From: Prosthecobacter dejongeii | GTDB lineage: Bacteria > Verrucomicrobiota > Verrucomicrobiia > Verrucomicrobiales > Verrucomicrobiaceae | Direction: 5' to 3' | Length of the DNA: 64,000 nucleotides | Assembly (NCBI RefSeq): GCF_014203045.1 | Contig: NZ_JACHIF010000010.1 | Coordinates: 1-64,000 of the forward strand | Part shown: positions 45,487 to 53,773 of the stretch, one piece after another | Layout of the letters: every line of letters starts with the position of its first letter | How positions within the stretch are numbered: the first letter of the stretch is position 1 | The notes under the pieces: generated by a model | Database searches by the model: none | What the model was told of the DNA's origin: nothing | Seen by the model: the letters and a program-made list of their open reading frames with translations, nothing else | Position numbers and translations under genes: made by a program

Positions 45487-45843
45487 GGTCAGTTGTGAAA
45501 CCCGACACCTTGTCAGGCGGGTTGTGTTTGAAGTTGAAAGGGCCGGAAAGAAATCACGAAAGCGAGGATTGGCAAGGGAAAATTCGTGTGAATACGAGCC
45601 TTAAACTGTTTCCAAAAAAGATTATCCCATAGGAAAGGCGAGCGCAGTGGGATGAGTGGCAAAGCAAGAGCGATGACTGCTATCTTTACAATAGCAACTA
45701 AGCGAAAAAGACGCCAATCGTCCCACCCCGTTGCCGCTTTTCGGACAAGATTTTTGAAAATCGGTCTGAAATGGGCTGCACTCGGTCGTAAAACGAAAAA
45801 GCTCTGCGTCGGGTAACGCAGAGCTTTATCAAAGTTCGTCCTT
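45487..45843. other. 357-base spacer before rpsO, with a terminator
   Basis: The end of the toroid-protein transcription unit. Its only supported feature is the terminator at 45791-45825. A minus-strand frame here (45513-45881) has a hydrophobic stretch but overlaps the end of the upstream gene and its composition is unlike its neighbours; I do not call it a gene. The rpsO promoter should lie here, but no clear element is seen. Confidence 0.5.
45791..45825 (-). terminator. Rho-independent terminator closing the ExbB/ExbD/TPR cluster
   Basis: AGCTCTGCGT pairs perfectly with ACGCAGAGCT around a 6-base loop. On the minus strand the tail is TTTTCGTTTTA. It lies 19 bases past the stop of the toroid protein. 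Confidence 0.88.
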
Positions 45844-47736
45844 TTATTGACGATCAAAAAAACTTTCTTCGTCGCGATCACCGACTTTTAAATAACGGTA
45901 ATACACTTCCAATTGGAGTGTGCAGAGCACTTGGCGGTAAACAGGATCTGCAGCATCACCGCCTGGCCAGTTGGGCCGACCTTTTTTGAAGCTGCCATCG
46001 GGCTGTTGAGCGGCCAGGATCTGCGGCAAAAACTGTTCGTTGTAAAACTTCCAGTCATCGCCGCCTGCTTGGAAGAAGGTCTGAGTGTAATAGTACCAGC
46101 AGTAGAGATTACAGTTTTTATTCCAATCCAGAGGCTCTGCGGTGATGAACTCACGCAGGAATTTGATCCCCTTCTTGATGGAGGCTGTGCGACCTTTCCC
46201 CAGCGTCTGTAGCCCCAAGGACCCGACCCCGGTAAGGCTCCACTGATTGTAGTGGGCATCCCGGTTAGCGCCACCATAACCGCCATCCTTCGTTTGCTTC
46301 CGCTCGATGTAATCACAGGTGCGATCAATCGCGCTTTGAAGACCCGCGATTTTCAAACCTGTGTATTTGGCGGCTTTCAAGGCCTGATATTGCCAACCTG
46401 CCACCGATAGATCTTCACGAGAGGAGGTGGGTTTGCCTTCGGAGATGTTTTTGGTGTAATAATCCCAAGAACCTTCGCCGTTTTTCGCATCCGCTTTGTT
46501 CTGGGTTTTGATGATGAGCTGAACACCTTTTTCGAAGGCTTCACGCATGCCAGGAAGTTGCTTGCTGCCCAGACGTGCGAGAGTGTACATCTCCCCTAGA
46601 GCATAGGTGGCGATGCCATGCTCATACGCACCGGCGTTGCTTTTAAAGTCATCTGTGATGGCTCCGTGCTCATTGGTCTTGGACATCTCGATGAGGAAGA
46701 GAATGCCGCGCATGACATTGTCTCCATAAAAGGGAGAGTCTGGCGTTTCACAGCGCCCAAGGAAACACAGCAGAGCAAGGCCTGTCATTGCAGCCTTATT
46801 GCGTTTACCCCCGCCTTGTCCCCAAGATCCATCAGGGTTCTGCTGGCTTTTCAGCCACTCTAAAGAAGCTGATACTGCACGTTCACACTCAGGATTGCCA
46901 CCATTCTGGCGAAGTTTTTCTAAACGTTCCTGCGGAGAGCAACGCTGCTGCATGGAAGGCGGCAGACTGACAAAACCCTGCATCCCGCCCATGCCCATCC
47001 CAGTGCCAAAGCCACCACCAGCTCCTGCTTTGCCAAAGCCTCCACTGCCCAGGCTTCCGCCTCCCAGCATTGAGCTCACATCCGGCACATCCAGCAGATC
47101 TGGCGGCGCATCCGGCAGCGTCACGGCCGAGTTCTGGCTCGTGCTCACGATCTTCTTCATCGGCATCGTCTTGTTCAGCGATGTCCGCTTCTTCTGCTGC
47201 ACCTTGTGCTGCATCTCTGCAGAGGCCTGCGCTCCCTGCTGCGTGCCGCCACCAGGCAGGAAGTCCACCTGCTTCTGAATCATCTGCGTGCTGACCACGA
47301 TAGCACCGCCCACGATGAGGATACCTGCGTGAATAGCCAAGCTGAGGGTCAAAGAACCACCGCCTACCTTGCGCCAGGCTTTCACCAGCGCATTGGGTGG
47401 TTTCACGGTTTCAAAATGGTTGAGCGCCGGCGGGTGATACATTTCACCTGGGGCTGCATGGAGGGCCACGGCTTGCTCTTCTTCCACAGCGGCCACAGGC
47501 ACGGGGCCTGAGGTGGCCGAAGGCGCGGGGTATCCCGCAGGTGGCGGCGGCATCATGCCGGGCTGGACGGGGTAGCCAAGATTTGGCTGAACGGGATAAC
47601 CCAAGTTGTTTCCCTGCACGGGATACCCCAGATTGCCCGGCTGCGGGTAACCCGGTGGGTAAACCATGGGCTGCGTGGCACCTGGGTCCGAGGGCGGAGG
47701 GGGGCCACCCGGATTCGGAGGAGGGGTATCAGACAT
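45844..47736 (-). CDS. TonB-like membrane anchor fused to a squalene-cyclase/prenyltransferase-type toroid
   Basis: A 630-residue protein, last gene of the cluster. Residues 1-100 are Pro/Gly-rich with three copies of NLGYPVQ. A single membrane span (about 128-150) contains SLAIH (S132, H136), the SxxxH pattern that TonB and TolA use to couple to ExbB/ExbD. Then comes a Gly-rich periplasmic linker (residues 160-260). From about 283 on, repeats such as SLEWLKSQQNPDGSWG, RTCDYIERKQTKDGGYGG and IKFLREFITAEPLDWNKN are of the squalene-cyclase/prenyltransferase alpha/alpha-toroid type. No DxDD or other terpene-cyclase catalytic motif is seen. I infer a structural or binding toroid driven by the neighbouring proton channel, not an enzyme of terpene synthesis. 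Confidence 0.8.
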   Translation of the reverse strand: MSDTPPPNPGGPPPPSDPGATQPMVYPPGYPQPGNLGYPVQGNNLGYPVQPNLGYPVQPGMMPPPPAGYPAPSATSGPVPVAAVEEEQAVALHAAPGEMYHPPALNHFETVKPPNALVKAWRKVGGGSLTLSLAIHAGILIVGGAIVVSTQMIQKQVDFLPGGGTQQGAQASAEMQHKVQQKKRTSLNKTMPMKKIVSTSQNSAVTLPDAPPDLLDVPDVSSMLGGGSLGSGGFGKAGAGGGFGTGMGMGGMQGFVSLPPSMQQRCSPQERLEKLRQNGGNPECERAVSASLEWLKSQQNPDGSWGQGGGKRNKAAMTGLALLCFLGRCETPDSPFYGDNVMRGILFLIEMSKTNEHGAITDDFKSNAGAYEHGIATYALGEMYTLARLGSKQLPGMREAFEKGVQLIIKTQNKADAKNGEGSWDYYTKNISEGKPTSSREDLSVAGWQYQALKAAKYTGLKIAGLQSAIDRTCDYIERKQTKDGGYGGANRDAHYNQWSLTGVGSLGLQTLGKGRTASIKKGIKFLREFITAEPLDWNKNCNLYCWYYYTQTFFQAGGDDWKFYNEQFLPQILAAQQPDGSFKKGRPNWPGGDAADPVYRQVLCTLQLEVYYRYLKVGDRDEESFFDRQ

Positions 47737-47816
47737 AACAGAAAAAGAACGAAGGTGGGGCCGCGCAGGGTTGCGGCCACTGAAAGTTGGGGAGGAATTA
47801 AGACAGCAGGTGTGGA

Positions 47817-48284
47817 TTAAAAATCCTCACCACCCACCGTAAAGGTCACATTGCCAATTTTAGCCTTGGCCATGGAGTTGAGTACATCAATGACACGCTC
47901 GTAGCGGGCTTGCTCCTCCGCTTGGATGGTCACCATCACCTTGGCATTGCGAAGGTCGGCTTCCTGCTTCAGGCGGAATAGTGTGTTGGTGAAATTGGGC
48001 AGCGCCTTGTCAGTGGGGGAATCGAATTCCTCTTCATTCAAAGTCACCACTCCTGATTCCTCCACCGTCACCATGATCTCGTCCGGTGGGGTGGTTTCAT
48101 CACTGAGCGCCGGGGTTCCCAGGCCAGGAAGTTGTGTCTTCAGTTCACGCTCCACTTTCACAGCACCAGCCATGACCATGAAAAAGAGCATGATGACGAA
48201 GACGACGTCAATCATGGGGGCGATCTGGAAGCCCATGGTGGCTTGGTCTGCCTCCAGGGCGCGATGTTTTTTACCGTGAGCCAT
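47817..48284 (-). CDS. ExbD/TolR family biopolymer transport protein, second copy
   Basis: A 155-residue protein with one N-terminal membrane helix and a periplasmic domain. The helix has FQIAPMIDVVFVIMLFFMV with the conserved proton-path Asp26. The periplasmic part ends RYERVIDVLNSMAKAKIGNVTF, the ExbD/TolR fold. It starts 4 bases after the stop of the first ExbD, so both are cotranslated. Start ATG at 48284; the frame extends to 48344. Unlike the first copy, it has an insert with LPGLGTPALSDETTPPDE. Confidence 0.92.
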   Translation of the reverse strand: MAHGKKHRALEADQATMGFQIAPMIDVVFVIMLFFMVMAGAVKVERELKTQLPGLGTPALSDETTPPDEIMVTVEESGVVTLNEEEFDSPTDKALPNFTNTLFRLKQEADLRNAKVMVTIQAEEQARYERVIDVLNSMAKAKIGNVTFTVGGEDF

Positions 48285-48288
48285 GCGA

Positions 48289-48726
48289 TCAGGAATCTTT
48301 GTTGAGGGCTGAAAAGGAAATGTCGTCAATGCCCGACTGGGCAATCAGCGCCATGACTTTCTGAATCTCCACCGCAGGCACATCGCGATCTCCGCGAATG
48401 ACGACCCGGTAGGTAGGATTGCTGTTTTTGCGTTGAGTGAGCGTGTTCACGATCTCCTCATTCTCCATCTCACGGTCGTCGAGCTTGATTTTAGACTCCT
48501 GCCGAGCAGCGATCCAGCGAACGTTGATGGCGGCCTCGAACATGGTGTTCTTGTCCTCCTTCTTCTTCGCATCGGCCGCCACAGGCAGCTTGATGTCTTT
48601 GTCAATTCTCAAGACCTGCGCCGAGGTGATGCTCATAAAGAAAATGAGCAGCACCAACAGCACGTCAATCATCGGAGCAATTTGGAACTCCGGTTCACCG
48701 TCTCCACCGCCTCCTCCTCCAGCCAT
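48289..48726 (-). CDS. ExbD/TolR family biopolymer transport protein, first copy
   Basis: A 145-residue protein. It opens with a Gly-rich run, then the membrane helix FQIAPMIDVLLVLLIFFMS with the conserved Asp21 and a periplasmic ExbD/TolR domain that ends ALIAQSGIDDISFSAL. It is a different sequence from the second copy (about 30-35% alike by eye outside the helix), so the two probably form a heteromeric pair in the motor. Located 43 bases after the ExbB gene. Confidence 0.93.
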   Translation of the reverse strand: MAGGGGGGDGEPEFQIAPMIDVLLVLLIFFMSITSAQVLRIDKDIKLPVAADAKKKEDKNTMFEAAINVRWIAARQESKIKLDDREMENEEIVNTLTQRKNSNPTYRVVIRGDRDVPAVEIQKVMALIAQSGIDDISFSALNKDS

Positions 48727-48769
48727 AAGAGTATCAGGTTAAGGTTAACCAACAGAATGAAAAATCCGA

Positions 48770-49630
48770 TTACACAGCCACAGCGACGGCTGCGCCATCG
48801 TTGCCACCAGCCACCCAGTTTGGCAGCGCAGCGTAGAACTCTTCTTCACCCACGTGAGCGTCTTTGAGATGCTCGTAAGGCATCTTACGGAACAGAGAGC
48901 TGATGATTTCCTGCAGACCGTGCATGGAGCCCTGAAGGCGATTGCGCAGAATGTAGAACACCATGAAAGCAGGCACAGCCACAGCCAGACCCGAAGCCGT
49001 AGCCACAAGCACCTCACCGATAGCGCCAGAGAGCTTGGAAGGATCACCCACACCACTGGTGCCCAGCGTTGCGAAGGCGCTCATCATCCCCGTCACGGTG
49101 CCGACCAGACCGATCATCGGAGTGCAAACACCCAACACCGAAAGGTAGTTGATGCGAGTCTGGATGGTGGCGTTGGTCTTGTTCAGTTCAGAGAACAATG
49201 CTTCTTCGACAGCGTTCTGACCTTCCCCCACGAAGCTCAGGCCCACACGGGTCACATCGGCAAAGTAGGAATTGTTGTTTTTAGCAAACTGGTAAGCACC
49301 GACGTAATCACCCGCACGGAAAAGATCCTGCACCTGACCTACCTGGGCAGGAGGGGCCATGCTTTTGAGTGCGGTACGCATCCAAAGGTCCACCGTCAGC
49401 CACACGAGTGCGACGGAGCAAAGGGTCAGCGGATACATCACCCAGCCACCTTCGCGGAAGCGGTCCATGAGGGTGTGCTGATGCACTTCAGGAGCGGCGG
49501 CAGCGGCTTCTCCAGCAGGGGCAGCAGCAGGCTCTTGGCCGTGCATGGGAGCTACCACCATCAGGTTGCCGGCGAGCAGCATGGCGCAGGCGCTAAGACG
49601 GACGAAGCCACGGAAAAAGGTCTGGATCAT
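48770..49630 (-). CDS. MotA/TolQ/ExbB proton channel family protein
   Basis: A 286-residue inner-membrane protein. It has an N-terminal signal-like hydrophobic segment, an Ala-rich periplasmic stretch, then three core helices: GGWVMYPLTLCSVALVWLTVD, SVLGVCTPMIGLVGTVTGMM and VLVATASGLAVAVPAFMVFY. The GLVGTVTGMMSAF segment, with its conserved Thr, is the ExbB/TolQ hallmark for the proton path. It should form a pentamer around the ExbD pair. The ATG at 49654 would add 8 residues; a still longer frame into the TPR gene is rejected. Confidence 0.93.
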   Translation of the reverse strand: MIQTFFRGFVRLSACAMLLAGNLMVVAPMHGQEPAAAPAGEAAAAAPEVHQHTLMDRFREGGWVMYPLTLCSVALVWLTVDLWMRTALKSMAPPAQVGQVQDLFRAGDYVGAYQFAKNNNSYFADVTRVGLSFVGEGQNAVEEALFSELNKTNATIQTRINYLSVLGVCTPMIGLVGTVTGMMSAFATLGTSGVGDPSKLSGAIGEVLVATASGLAVAVPAFMVFYILRNRLQGSMHGLQEIISSLFRKMPYEHLKDAHVGEEEFYAALPNWVAGGNDGAAVAVAV

Positions 49631-49697
49631 AGAGGGGTTATTGCGGGTGTGCATGGGAGGCAGTGGGTAGGTTGGGATTCGTTTAAAGAAAGGGTAA

Positions 49698-50588
49698 TTA
49701 CTGAGCGGCTTTTTCGGTTTTTTCGCCTTCGGCAGATTCTTCAGCTTCCTCTTCGGGCTCATTTTTCATGCCGTTGATGGCAGCCTTTTCTTTGGCTGCT
49801 ATATCAGCAATGGCAGAGCCTTTGTAGGAATCGGAAATACGGGTGAAGAGAGCCTGGGCGTCTTCATAACGTTTCATCTTGGCTAGCATTTGACCCGCTT
49901 TGAGTTCTGCATCTGGGACACGCTGCATTTGGGTGCCGTAAAAAACTGGAATGCGCAGATAAGCCATCAAAGCCTTTTCCCATTCCTTCTTTTTGGCGTG
50001 GATGTCGGCAATGATCATCCAGATGGAAGCTCCGACACCTGAGTCATTGGTATCCGAGAGGATGCTTTCGGCTTCATCGAGAATCGAGGTGTATTCGGAG
50101 GAAGTTTGGCGATCAATATCCAACTGAATAATGCGCAGAGACATCTTCTGTTCTGCCGTCAGAGGCAGCGTCTTGAGCAAGGGAATCAGCTTGATGGTCT
50201 CTTCGAACTTGCCCGCTTGGCTCAAGGTTTCCACGTAAGCGAAGAAAACAGGTTGGTACCAGTTACCTTCCACCTTTTCGAACTTTTGGAAGAAATCGAG
50301 CGACTTCTTCAAAAGGGCCAAAGCCTCTTCGGACTTGGCTTGAGCCATGAGGTTTTTGGCCTCAAGTAATTCCACTGGCTCAGGCCAATCTAGATAAGCG
50401 ATATTCTGCCACGGCAAAACGGTGGTCGCAGACTTATCACCGATCTTAATCGTGCGAACGATCTTGTCACCATCCATGGTGAATTCGGTATCAGGAATGC
50501 GTGTGCCATCTTTGAGCACGATGGCTTGGCCGAACGCTGCGCCTGAGAGCAGCACTGTCGCCAGAAGAATGAGGGTATGACGAAACAT
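49698..50588 (-). CDS. Exported TPR-type protein, 296 residues
   Basis: A signal peptide (MFRHTLILLATVLLSGAAFGQ) leads to a beta-strand domain of about 45 residues (AIVLKDGTRIPDTEFTMDGD...), then repeated helical pairs of TPR type such as LLEAKNLMAQAKSEEALALLKKS and ALMAYLRIPVF. The C-terminus is acidic and Glu-rich (EEEAEESAEGEK). It is probably periplasmic, between the giant TPR gene (38 bases upstream) and the proton channel (67 bases downstream). I expect it to link the motor to an envelope partner. Start ATG at 50588; the longer frame to 50630 overlaps the upstream gene. Confidence 0.85.
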   Translation of the reverse strand: MFRHTLILLATVLLSGAAFGQAIVLKDGTRIPDTEFTMDGDKIVRTIKIGDKSATTVLPWQNIAYLDWPEPVELLEAKNLMAQAKSEEALALLKKSLDFFQKFEKVEGNWYQPVFFAYVETLSQAGKFEETIKLIPLLKTLPLTAEQKMSLRIIQLDIDRQTSSEYTSILDEAESILSDTNDSGVGASIWMIIADIHAKKKEWEKALMAYLRIPVFYGTQMQRVPDAELKAGQMLAKMKRYEDAQALFTRISDSYKGSAIADIAAKEKAAINGMKNEPEEEAEESAEGEKTEKAAQ

Positions 50589-50626
50589 GGAAATGTGAGG
50601 AGAATAAGAGTTCACAAGGACAGGGA

Positions 50627-53521
50627 TCAAAGCTTGGAAAGTTCTTGTTCGGCCTGCTTCATTTCTGGCAGATCCTTCAGGTCCTGACGCTTGGTCATCT
50701 CGATGAGCAGCAGTTTAGCAGCTTCACGATCTGAATACTGACGCGGCGGCGTTTCAGTCGGAGCTGCCGGGCGGTTGAACTTGATGAAAGCCCGCGCACA
50801 CTGCACGTAGGACTGAGCCATCACACTCTTCCACTTTTGATGAGCAATGAAAACGCGCTGATAGAAGGGAATAGCTTCACCCCACTTCTGGTTAGCGAAC
50901 TCAATCTCTCCCTGCATGAAAAGGGAGGTCGCATGCGCCTCACCGCGCCACTCTTTCGTGTTGAGGATCTGCACATACAATTTCTTGGCATCGTCATACT
51001 TCTTCAGTTTGAAGAGCGTCTTCGCCTTCCCCAGAGTTGCATCAAGCAAGCGTGAGCTCGCAGCATAACCTTCGATAGCCGAAGTGAACAACTCCAAAGC
51101 TTTATCGAACTCACCCTTGGCGTATGCGATCTCTGCCAGACCCACAGCAGCACCATCGGCATACTCAGTCTCTTTATAGAATTCGTTCAGGCGATTGTAG
51201 CAGCCAGCTGCCTTGTCTAGATCACCCTTTGTGCGCGCATTGTCACCCACCGTGGCCAATAACATTGGGCTTAGGTCTTCAGGCTTAGCAACCTCAATAA
51301 TGACGGCAAAAAGCTTCTCCGCTTTGACGGGTTCACGCATCACTTTGGCGAGCCAGGCTTTGGCAAAAAGAATGCGCATTTGGGCAGTGCCATTCATGCC
51401 TGCCTGAGGTGGAGTAATCAGTTCTTCGAGTTGCTTTTCCACCTGTTCGTGAGTCAACTCCGCAGGTGCTGCTGGGGCACCTTCCACAGGCGCAGCTGGA
51501 CGGCGGCGCTTCGGCGCGACTAAGCTAACCAACTGCTGAATGAGACCTTCCACTTGCTCATTCGCAGGGTTTCCAATTTTAGGTTTGATGGCGGTCGCGA
51601 GAAGTTGTTTGGCCTCATCAATCTTATTTTCCTTCACTCGAGCACGGGAGATCCACAGCACAGCCTTGAGCTCCTGCTCTTCGTTGTCCTTGTGCGTATT
51701 GAGGTATTTTTGCCACATGTCCCCCAGCTCTTTCCACTTGCCCGTGCCCGCGTAGAGATCCGTAGCTTGGTCCATGGCGTAGGTCAGCACATCTTCAGAC
51801 TTGGCCTTATCCACGCCTGCGGCGAAATTGGCCAAGGCTTTGTCATAATCCCCTTTTTGGTTGTAGGCATCGCCTAACAAACTGTGCACTTGGCCGATGT
51901 TCTGGTCATTCGGGGCATCCTTGATGATGCTTTCCAAGTCTGCCATCGCATTGTCCACGTCGCGACTTTGAAATTTGATGAAAGCCAGACGATAACGAGC
52001 ATCCACGACATACTGCCCTTTCGGGTTTTCCTTCATGTAGTTATTCAGTGCCTTCGTGGTATTGATCGAGTCATTCTGATAGAAGTAAATGAGAGCGATG
52101 CGATACAGGCCGTCATCCTTGTAAGCGGAGTCTGGAAACTCATTCAGCAGAAGTTCAAAAGTGGTCCGCGCATCGTCAAAACGCTGCATTTCAAACAGCA
52201 CGTTTCCACGCAGAAAGCGCAGGCGCTCCTTGTCGGCTTTGGGAAAACCTTCAGCTTTGTTAAAGGCATCCGCGGCCTCTTGCAGCTTACCATTTTCATA
52301 AGCAAGCATGCCGAACATTTCCGATACCGTGCCTAAATCTGCACCATCCGGAAAATCATTGATGTAGCGTTCGCAAAGTTTGCGGGCTGACTTCACACGC
52401 TTGAGCTGGGCATTGGCAATGATCATGCCGAAGACGCAGCGGTCACGCTGAGGGAATTCCTTGAACTCCTTCACGATGACATCAAACGCCAAAAGAGACT
52501 CCCAGAAACGCCCCATTTCAAAGTAACAGCGGCCCAAGCGGTAATAAAGAGAAGCATCGTAGTCGGTGCGTTTTTCGATCTCTTCCAGCAATCCATTGTT
52601 GGTTTTGAGCTTCTCATCGAGCTCTTCCTTGGTGCCCTTGATCGGCCCTTTGCCTGGCGTTTTCAGACTCTGTTCGATTTTAGCAATCACGTCTTTTTGG
52701 AGACGGGTGATCTCGCTTTTACGGCGCACAAACTGGTAAGCCCCGAGAGCTTCGCGGAAGCTTTTTTTCTCCAGCATCTGGTCACCTAAACGCAGATAAA
52801 TGTTGTTCATCTGGGCCACATTATCCCCACCCGTGGCGAAGCCTTTGACCTTCTCCATGAGCTCACCTGCGGCATCCAGGTCACCTTTGGCGACATGTAG
52901 GTCCGCTGCCATCATGGCCGCCTGGATAGCTTCGGAGCTACGAATACCACCTTCAAGAACCGACTTTAAGACAGCGAGCGCCTCATCCACCTTATCTTGT
53001 TTTTTCAAAGCTTCTGCCACGAAAAGACCTGCTTCGGATTTGAGGTCGGGAGACTGCGCGACGACCTCCTTGAGGATGGTGATGCCTTTGTCAGCATCCC
53101 CTTTATTGATGTAACTGCGCCCGAGCGCCATCTTCACCGCGCTGAGCTGTTCACCTTCTGGGAAAGACTTGATGTATTCCTCCAAGGCAGCGATAGCCTT
53201 GTCATACTCATTGAGATTGAAGTACGCGGCCCCTTCGATGAAGAGCACCTGGGCAAAGGGCTTGTTATTCAGGTTTTTCTTCACCTGATCAATCTTCGAA
53301 AGCGCCTCAGGATATTTTGCCTCTTGGAAAAGACGCATGGCCTCAGACATGAGGGCCTCCGTCTCCTGCTGAATATTCAAAGCACCCGTAGGTGCAGCTG
53401 GTGCCCCGGGGGCAGCTGGGGCTGCAGGCGGTGGGGCCTGGGCGATCAATTGAGGCCCAGAAACAAGGACAAGAGCAAAGCAAAGTGCGTTTCGCATGGC
53501 AGACAAAGACGAGTAAATCAT
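50627..53521 (-). CDS. Giant exported TPR protein, 964 residues
   Basis: A signal peptide (MRNALCFALVLVSGPQLIAQ) is followed by a Pro/Ala spacer and then about 20 helical repeats of TPR/Tol-Pal (YbgF-like) type from residue 40 to the end, for example AMRLFQEAKYPEALSKIDQV, AAYFNLNEYDKAIAALEEYI and EIAYAKGEFDKALELFTSAI. A Pro/Ala-rich break near residue 665-685 (RRRPAAPVEGAPAAPAE) splits the array into two parts. It is the first gene of the cluster. TPR arrays of this size usually scaffold multiprotein complexes; here the partner would be periplasmic. Start choice between ATGs at 53521 and 53497 is open. Confidence 0.85.
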   Translation of the reverse strand: MIYSSLSAMRNALCFALVLVSGPQLIAQAPPPAAPAAPGAPAAPTGALNIQQETEALMSEAMRLFQEAKYPEALSKIDQVKKNLNNKPFAQVLFIEGAAYFNLNEYDKAIAALEEYIKSFPEGEQLSAVKMALGRSYINKGDADKGITILKEVVAQSPDLKSEAGLFVAEALKKQDKVDEALAVLKSVLEGGIRSSEAIQAAMMAADLHVAKGDLDAAGELMEKVKGFATGGDNVAQMNNIYLRLGDQMLEKKSFREALGAYQFVRRKSEITRLQKDVIAKIEQSLKTPGKGPIKGTKEELDEKLKTNNGLLEEIEKRTDYDASLYYRLGRCYFEMGRFWESLLAFDVIVKEFKEFPQRDRCVFGMIIANAQLKRVKSARKLCERYINDFPDGADLGTVSEMFGMLAYENGKLQEAADAFNKAEGFPKADKERLRFLRGNVLFEMQRFDDARTTFELLLNEFPDSAYKDDGLYRIALIYFYQNDSINTTKALNNYMKENPKGQYVVDARYRLAFIKFQSRDVDNAMADLESIIKDAPNDQNIGQVHSLLGDAYNQKGDYDKALANFAAGVDKAKSEDVLTYAMDQATDLYAGTGKWKELGDMWQKYLNTHKDNEEQELKAVLWISRARVKENKIDEAKQLLATAIKPKIGNPANEQVEGLIQQLVSLVAPKRRRPAAPVEGAPAAPAELTHEQVEKQLEELITPPQAGMNGTAQMRILFAKAWLAKVMREPVKAEKLFAVIIEVAKPEDLSPMLLATVGDNARTKGDLDKAAGCYNRLNEFYKETEYADGAAVGLAEIAYAKGEFDKALELFTSAIEGYAASSRLLDATLGKAKTLFKLKKYDDAKKLYVQILNTKEWRGEAHATSLFMQGEIEFANQKWGEAIPFYQRVFIAHQKWKSVMAQSYVQCARAFIKFNRPAAPTETPPRQYSDREAAKLLLIEMTKRQDLKDLPEMKQAEQELSKL

Positions 53522-53773
53522 GGTGGACCTGAACAGAACAATCACGTTTCTGACACGCACTCCGGGGAGGAATGATCAAAGATAATCCGAAGACGTTGAA
53601 TCACAGGGCAATAACCAGACATTTTTCGTGAAAAAGGAAGCCGAGATTACCAACAGCACTTTTTTTGTCACGAACGATCTGATTGATGACCCAGAAGAAA
53701 CACAGAAAATCCCCCGGTTTGCCTAATTTCGAGGGCCTGGAACGATTCAGAATCACCTTAACAGAAGCCGTTT

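Follow-up and report, generated by a model that had tools for sequence, protein, structure and literature searches.

The 64,000-nucleotide stretch of the 6 Mb Prosthecobacter dejongeii genome analysed here, hereafter the window, carries six genes that appear to encode an ExbB/ExbD-type motor and a membrane-anchored arm, in the position of TonB or TolA, ending in a squalene-cyclase-type toroid. Our comparisons make it very likely that the toroid protein is coupled to the motor, and we lean towards the broader reading that the whole is a machine, driven by proton motive force, for taking hold of polymeric cargo (probably glycans) and transporting it within the envelope or across it. On motors of this type only the TonB and TolA arms are well studied; the vWA class, to which no function was assigned, joined them as late as 2025; toroid and PA14 arms, together with the exchange of arms on related motors, would imply that the motor is a general engine fitted with swappable tools.

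As called from open reading frames and Pfam matches, all six genes lie on the minus strand in the order TPR, TPR, ExbB, ExbD, ExbD, toroid. The first (50627..53560; 977-residue open reading frame, 964 residues from the ATG at 53521) encodes a large exported protein matching TPR families, and the second (49698..50630; 310-residue open reading frame, 296 residues from the ATG at 50588) a smaller exported protein that also matches TPR families. They are followed by the ExbB/TolQ proton-channel subunit (48770..49762, Pfam MotA_ExbB 1.6e-23), whose N-terminus forms a signal-peptide-like extension, and by two ExbD/TolR proteins (48289..48726, Pfam ExbD 1.4e-19; and 47817..48344, Pfam ExbD 6.7e-19, probable ATG at 48281), both of which retain the transmembrane Asp in a PMIDV motif. 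The toroid protein, the putative force-transducing arm (45844..47736, 630 residues, Pfam SQHop_cyclase_C 2.8e-7), ends the row, and an intrinsic terminator-like hairpin on the same strand (45798..45827; 13-pair stem, 4-base loop, T-rich tail), starting 17 bases past this last gene, closes the set. The preliminary description of this DNA had reported six co-directional genes with a terminator and TPR proteins of 964 and 296 residues; the reading frames, Pfam matches and hairpin agree with that account, and both lengths hold when counted from the first ATG codons. ExbB could be aligned with the TolQ/ExbB proteins of solved structures through its GLxGTVxGxM and ATAxGL motifs, with conserved Thr and Pro positions, and ExbD 1 with TolR across the Asp. 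With a MotA_ExbB channel carrying the Thr and a transmembrane Asp in each ExbD, these subunits are predicted to form a motor of the ExbB-ExbD or TolQ-TolR kind. Among the flanking genes at the locus, no TBDT, glycosidase or SusD-like gene adjoins the cluster.

Gene order was read by profile searches of about 40 loci. The arrangement TPR-TPR-ExbB-ExbD-ExbD-toroid on one strand recurs in 20 genomes besides the window's, from 11 families (G033, G018, G266, G115, RYN_635, G300, G228, G263, G317, G087, G188, G144, G084, G276, G102, G212, G132, G128, G227 and G173), in a few of which the profiles failed to pick up the second TPR gene or one of the ExbDs. The large TPR protein has strong same-position homologs in cluster-bearing genomes, and in G033 the proteins are 94-100% identical, one by one, to those of the window. 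Such conservation of gene order and content is far beyond chance. The preliminary description had taken an absence of synteny in related genomes to count against a system; that objection fails, since the synteny extends across the phylum. The toroid family is present in 160 of the 289 Verrucomicrobiota genomes sampled, and five genomes (G283, G037, G053, G050 and G024) hold the motor cluster without a toroid, which is encoded elsewhere in the genome. In many drafts of the window's genus (L025, L027, L037, L041-L046, L051-L064), contigs stop inside the toroid gene, probably because assembly fails between near-identical copies within a genome; a draft that lacks the cluster should therefore be interpreted with caution. 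The single plasmid match, in Planctomyces, is to a toroid protein unaccompanied by the cluster.

The N-terminus of the arm (residues 1-118) is Pro-rich and predicted to be cytoplasmic. It leads into a transmembrane helix that bears S132-L-A-I-H136 (placed by hydropathy and motif at approximately 47281..47349, minus strand, residues 130-152), then into the conserved motif VDFLPGGG and a linker rich in Gly. In a full-length model, whose confidence is low beyond the toroid, residues 128-148 are helical, residues 1-114 disordered and the linker mostly so, apart from one more helix at 166-186 and with no predicted strand; the toroid occupies about residues 268-618 of this model. Because about 118 residues precede the span, we read it as an anchor, in line with the preliminary description; these residues and the conserved Ser-x3-His motif (SxxxH) rule out a cleaved signal peptide.

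Cryo-EM structures show that the Ser and His of TonB and TolA contact ExbB and TolQ, and neither the Ton nor the Tol system functions without the His (PMC12215075, PMC10666116). The window arm appears to share the three-part layout of these proteins (anchor, linker, C-terminal domain), and its surroundings share with TonB-ExbB-ExbD and TolA-TolQ-TolR the ExbB/TolQ channel, the ExbD/TolR with its transmembrane Asp and the arm anchored through Ser-x3-His. By contrast, the window has two different ExbDs, TPR partners and a toroid, and its arm lacks a TonB/TolA C-terminal domain: Pfam reports SQHop/prenyltransferase domains only, and the model is a toroid. SxxxH occurs in 23 of the 30 arms that sit with a motor cluster, and the His is in place in 27 of them, the three linked toroids without it making up the rest. 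As a control, single-span open reading frames of the same loci carry the motif in 5 of 287 cases (Fisher p 3e-24, to be taken as a guide only, as rows share descent and the control frames include spurious ones), or in 1 of 211 when neighbours of ExbB genes are left out. Within the window's genus, every full-length arm examined has SxxxH while the N-terminus varies. VDFLPGGG is strictly conserved. SxxxH, which the preliminary description had not mentioned, is the strongest support for coupling to the motor. Two standalone toroids also carry it, missed by a script that chose an Ala/Pro-rich stretch. It is not universal in standalone toroids, being absent from those of Akkermansia, G326, G286 and some others. 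Nor do we claim a clean correlation between SxxxH and a canonical motor: G159 and G194 lack the motif although the motor is present.

The toroid spans about residues 265-618 of the 630, and AlphaFold2 predicts an (alpha/alpha)6 fold (pLDDT 82, pTM 0.85). A search with the predicted toroid returned squalene-hopene cyclase 2sqc as the closest solved structure (Z 26.8, 290 residues, 2.9 A), so that the C-terminal alpha/alpha toroid of squalene-cyclase type, first proposed from the letters alone, is now backed by a model and a structural match. Its neighbours also include (alpha/alpha)6 enzymes that act on sugars, among them cellobiose 2-epimerases and GH76, and since the neighbours span both squalene-hopene cyclase and sugar-acting enzymes, the fold by itself gives no function. 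The window protein shares the fold and QW-like repeats with squalene-hopene cyclase and other (alpha/alpha)6 toroids, but differs from the cyclase in being a membrane-anchored arm with a single toroid instead of two. It has no DxDD acid motif, and full-length cyclase models score far below their cut-offs (TIGR01507, 19.5 bits vs 431), for which reason a terpene cyclase was dropped as the default reading. Conserved residues of the toroid (M317, T318, Y371, H373, D442, S444, Y545, Y548 and Y600) would lie mostly at the starts of inner helices, where ligands bind in this fold, as placed from predicted helix positions and not from coordinates.

The anchor and linker proved to be common to arms with other C-terminal domains. 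A search with the toroid protein also retrieves proteins that match residues 86-258 only, the anchor and linker, and the window's genome has four arms, each at its own locus and all with a common transmembrane helix and linker: two end in a toroid, one is PA14-like (L066) and one vWA-like (L067, assigned from a DVSTSM motif and layout alone, with no Pfam vWA match). The second toroid arm is 83% identical to the first, with the same anchor and linker, and lies on the same contig (G000:C10:220942-222768; L065 7916-9772). It has no motor gene nearby, its neighbours being a DUF4175 protein, a pyridine nucleotide oxidoreductase, an Alginate_exp outer-membrane protein and a Na/H exchanger. This genome is rich in such motors, with ten matches each to the ExbB and ExbD families, and none of its eight ExbB genes placed in the tree, other than the window's own, belongs to the window's clade.

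Across genomes, a single ExbB clade (100/99) holds motors that adjoin a toroid (G263), a vWA arm (G303), a PA14 arm (G292) or a toroid plus PA14 (G300, G228), and in G105, G194 and G159 a vWA-type arm takes the toroid position. Two assignments clear the Pfam cut-off, that of the G300 arm as PA14 (2.5e-5) and that of the G303 arm as vWA (8.6e-7); the remaining vWA and PA14 assignments are weaker (vWA E 0.005 to 0.02) and made partly by similarity to these two arms. As read from these sequences, toroid, vWA, PA14 and toroid+PA14 arms have been exchanged on closely related motors. PA14 is a carbohydrate-binding domain in several proteins. Taken together, the swapped domains on one arm suggest a general engine that handles large molecules, probably glycans.

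A related class of arms has been published. A 2025 Mol Biol Evol study described, in PVC bacteria, vWA-ended transducers with an SHLS motif and a motor box, of unknown function, which adjoin a TPR gene, tolQ and two tolR (PMC12204202). Both these transducers and the window arm have a single transmembrane helix (bearing SHLS in the vWA arms), a linker that is disordered or, in the window arm, predicted to be largely so, and a globular C-terminal domain, and both sit downstream of TPR, tolQ and two tolR; the window arm, however, ends in a squalene-cyclase-type toroid and not in a vWA domain. Given published vWA arms beside a like gene set, the window cluster is therefore a variant with a different, widespread C-terminal domain. 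The text of that study mentions neither squalene, toroid nor PA14 (PMC12204202), and a literature search returned no paper on ExbB together with squalene from Planctomycetes. Toroid or PA14 arms, arm exchange and a genome with one motor of this type for four arms appear to be new. The preliminary description had proposed an undescribed energised trans-envelope system with a toroid in the TonB/TolA position, and knew of no described system with this combination. Synteny, the anchor and SxxxH support the energised system and the place of the toroid in it; the claim of novelty holds only in part, given the vWA transducers (PMC12204202) and kinship with the Akkermansia mucin utilization locus, MUL1.

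That kinship emerged from small genomes of the same order (g2), in which genes for ExbB, two ExbDs, a TPR protein some 1100 residues long and a protein of 347 residues stand in a row. The 347-residue protein scores 292 bits against the NCBIfam Mul1B model (cut-off 75), and this row is therefore the Akkermansia locus, MUL1 being identified here through that model and secondary papers. In the ExbB tree, the MUL1 ExbB joins the window's clade with support of 98/93; its branch is long, and a second sample lowers the joining node to 85/89. The three remaining Akkermansia ExbBs cluster instead with other ExbB paralogs encoded by the window's genome. We thus regard it as probable that the window and MUL1 motors share a common descent that excludes the other ExbBs. 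The family of the second TPR protein is remotely similar to Mul1B (profile-profile probability 95.8, E 7e-9); the Mul1B model NF052542 has no match in the window's genome (G000) and a weak one to the second TPR homolog of G115 (E 4e-6). Both loci combine an ExbB of a related clade, two ExbDs, a large TPR protein, that of MUL1 (1101 residues) being the positional counterpart of the window's, and a Mul1B-like protein, but MUL1 differs in its gene order, in having no arm gene in the locus and in its large sequence divergence.

Published work states that the build-up of mucin products in internal compartments depends on MUL genes (PMC12418764, PMC13174399), and the link to MUL1 provides a first experimental handle on function. 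This function may not carry over to the window cluster. Akkermansia-type genomes (L078-L081) have two or three tandem toroid genes away from MUL1 and without SxxxH, so a toroid arm is not known for MUL1. In one of them (L080), a GH95-type glycosidase gene lies close to the tandem toroids on the opposite strand. Published work found no MUL1 synteny in aquatic Akkermansiaceae (PMC13174399), yet a MUL1-like order (Mul1B-like, TPR, ExbD, ExbD, ExbB) is present in L149 (G286:C44), from a genus of the same family other than Akkermansia. Amuc_0546, listed as a biopolymer transporter gene in a transcriptome paper (PMC11480725), fits an ExbD of the MUL1 locus.

We propose that the ExbB-ExbD-ExbD proton channel in the inner membrane would drive the toroid protein as a TonB/TolA-like arm. 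The arm would bind the motor through its membrane helix, by way of Ser132 and His136, and VDFLPGGG, just past the membrane, would probably contact ExbD. The flexible Gly-rich linker would then pass force to the periplasmic toroid, and the two exported TPR proteins may serve as a periplasmic scaffold, as is thought for Mul1A and Mul1B in Akkermansia. With its conserved pocket, the toroid would most likely bind or process the cargo, for which a glycan or other polymer has about an even chance, and in relatives a toroid, PA14 or vWA domain is found on the same anchor and motor, so that arms are exchangeable. More tentatively, one class of Verrucomicrobiota motor with exchangeable TonB-like arms might be a general engine that pulls polymeric substrates into the periplasm, of which MUL1 would be one specialised descendant. 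If true, this engine would provide a mechanism for selfish polysaccharide uptake in Verrucomicrobiota, a testable proposal for how these bacteria take up large glycans, a trait of importance in the gut and for ocean carbon cycling.

An arm devoted to envelope upkeep, pulling on the outer membrane or peptidoglycan as Tol-Pal does, or with a toroid that handles lipids such as hopanoids, is an unlikely alternative but the one that survives best. The best profile matches of ExbB and ExbD in NCBIfam and the PDB are indeed TolQ and TolR, the first TPR protein resembles the repeats of YbgF/CpoB and BamD in profile searches (a partly generic similarity, which limits the weight of TPR matches), and the toroid has the squalene-cyclase fold; the cluster nevertheless lacks TolB and Pal, the toroid family has no match in 129 of the 289 Verrucomicrobiota genomes, which would be odd for housekeeping, and MUL1, the nearest relative studied experimentally, serves mucin use. 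Less likely still is a machine for surface motility or adhesion with swappable adhesive domains. The myxobacterial Agl motor, with which the preliminary description compared this set, likewise combines a single TolQ-like subunit with two of TolR type and with TPR partners, but no Agl-specific partner is seen at the window cluster, and none of our results supports the comparison. A gliding role was proposed for the vWA arms by the authors who described them (PMC12204202), and vWA and PA14 are adhesion-type domains, yet the arms are anchored in the inner membrane and end in the periplasm, and the relation to MUL1 also argues against this explanation. Finally, an enzyme tethered to the membrane, transducing no force and only sharing its operon with an unrelated ExbB/ExbD pump, as the conserved pocket residues Y371 to Y600 at inner-helix starts, the many sugar-acting structural neighbours and the Akkermansia toroids apart from the motor and lacking SxxxH might suggest, is improbable in view of the SxxxH enrichment, the strict conservation of anchor and linker across arms with differing C-terminal domains and the exchange of arms on closely related motors.

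The putative motor-coupled arm may also have a further counterpart in the window's genome: a single-span protein with an SVAIH motif (L074 8712-9713, G000:C6) adjoins an ExbB of a different clade and is a candidate for another TonB-like arm.
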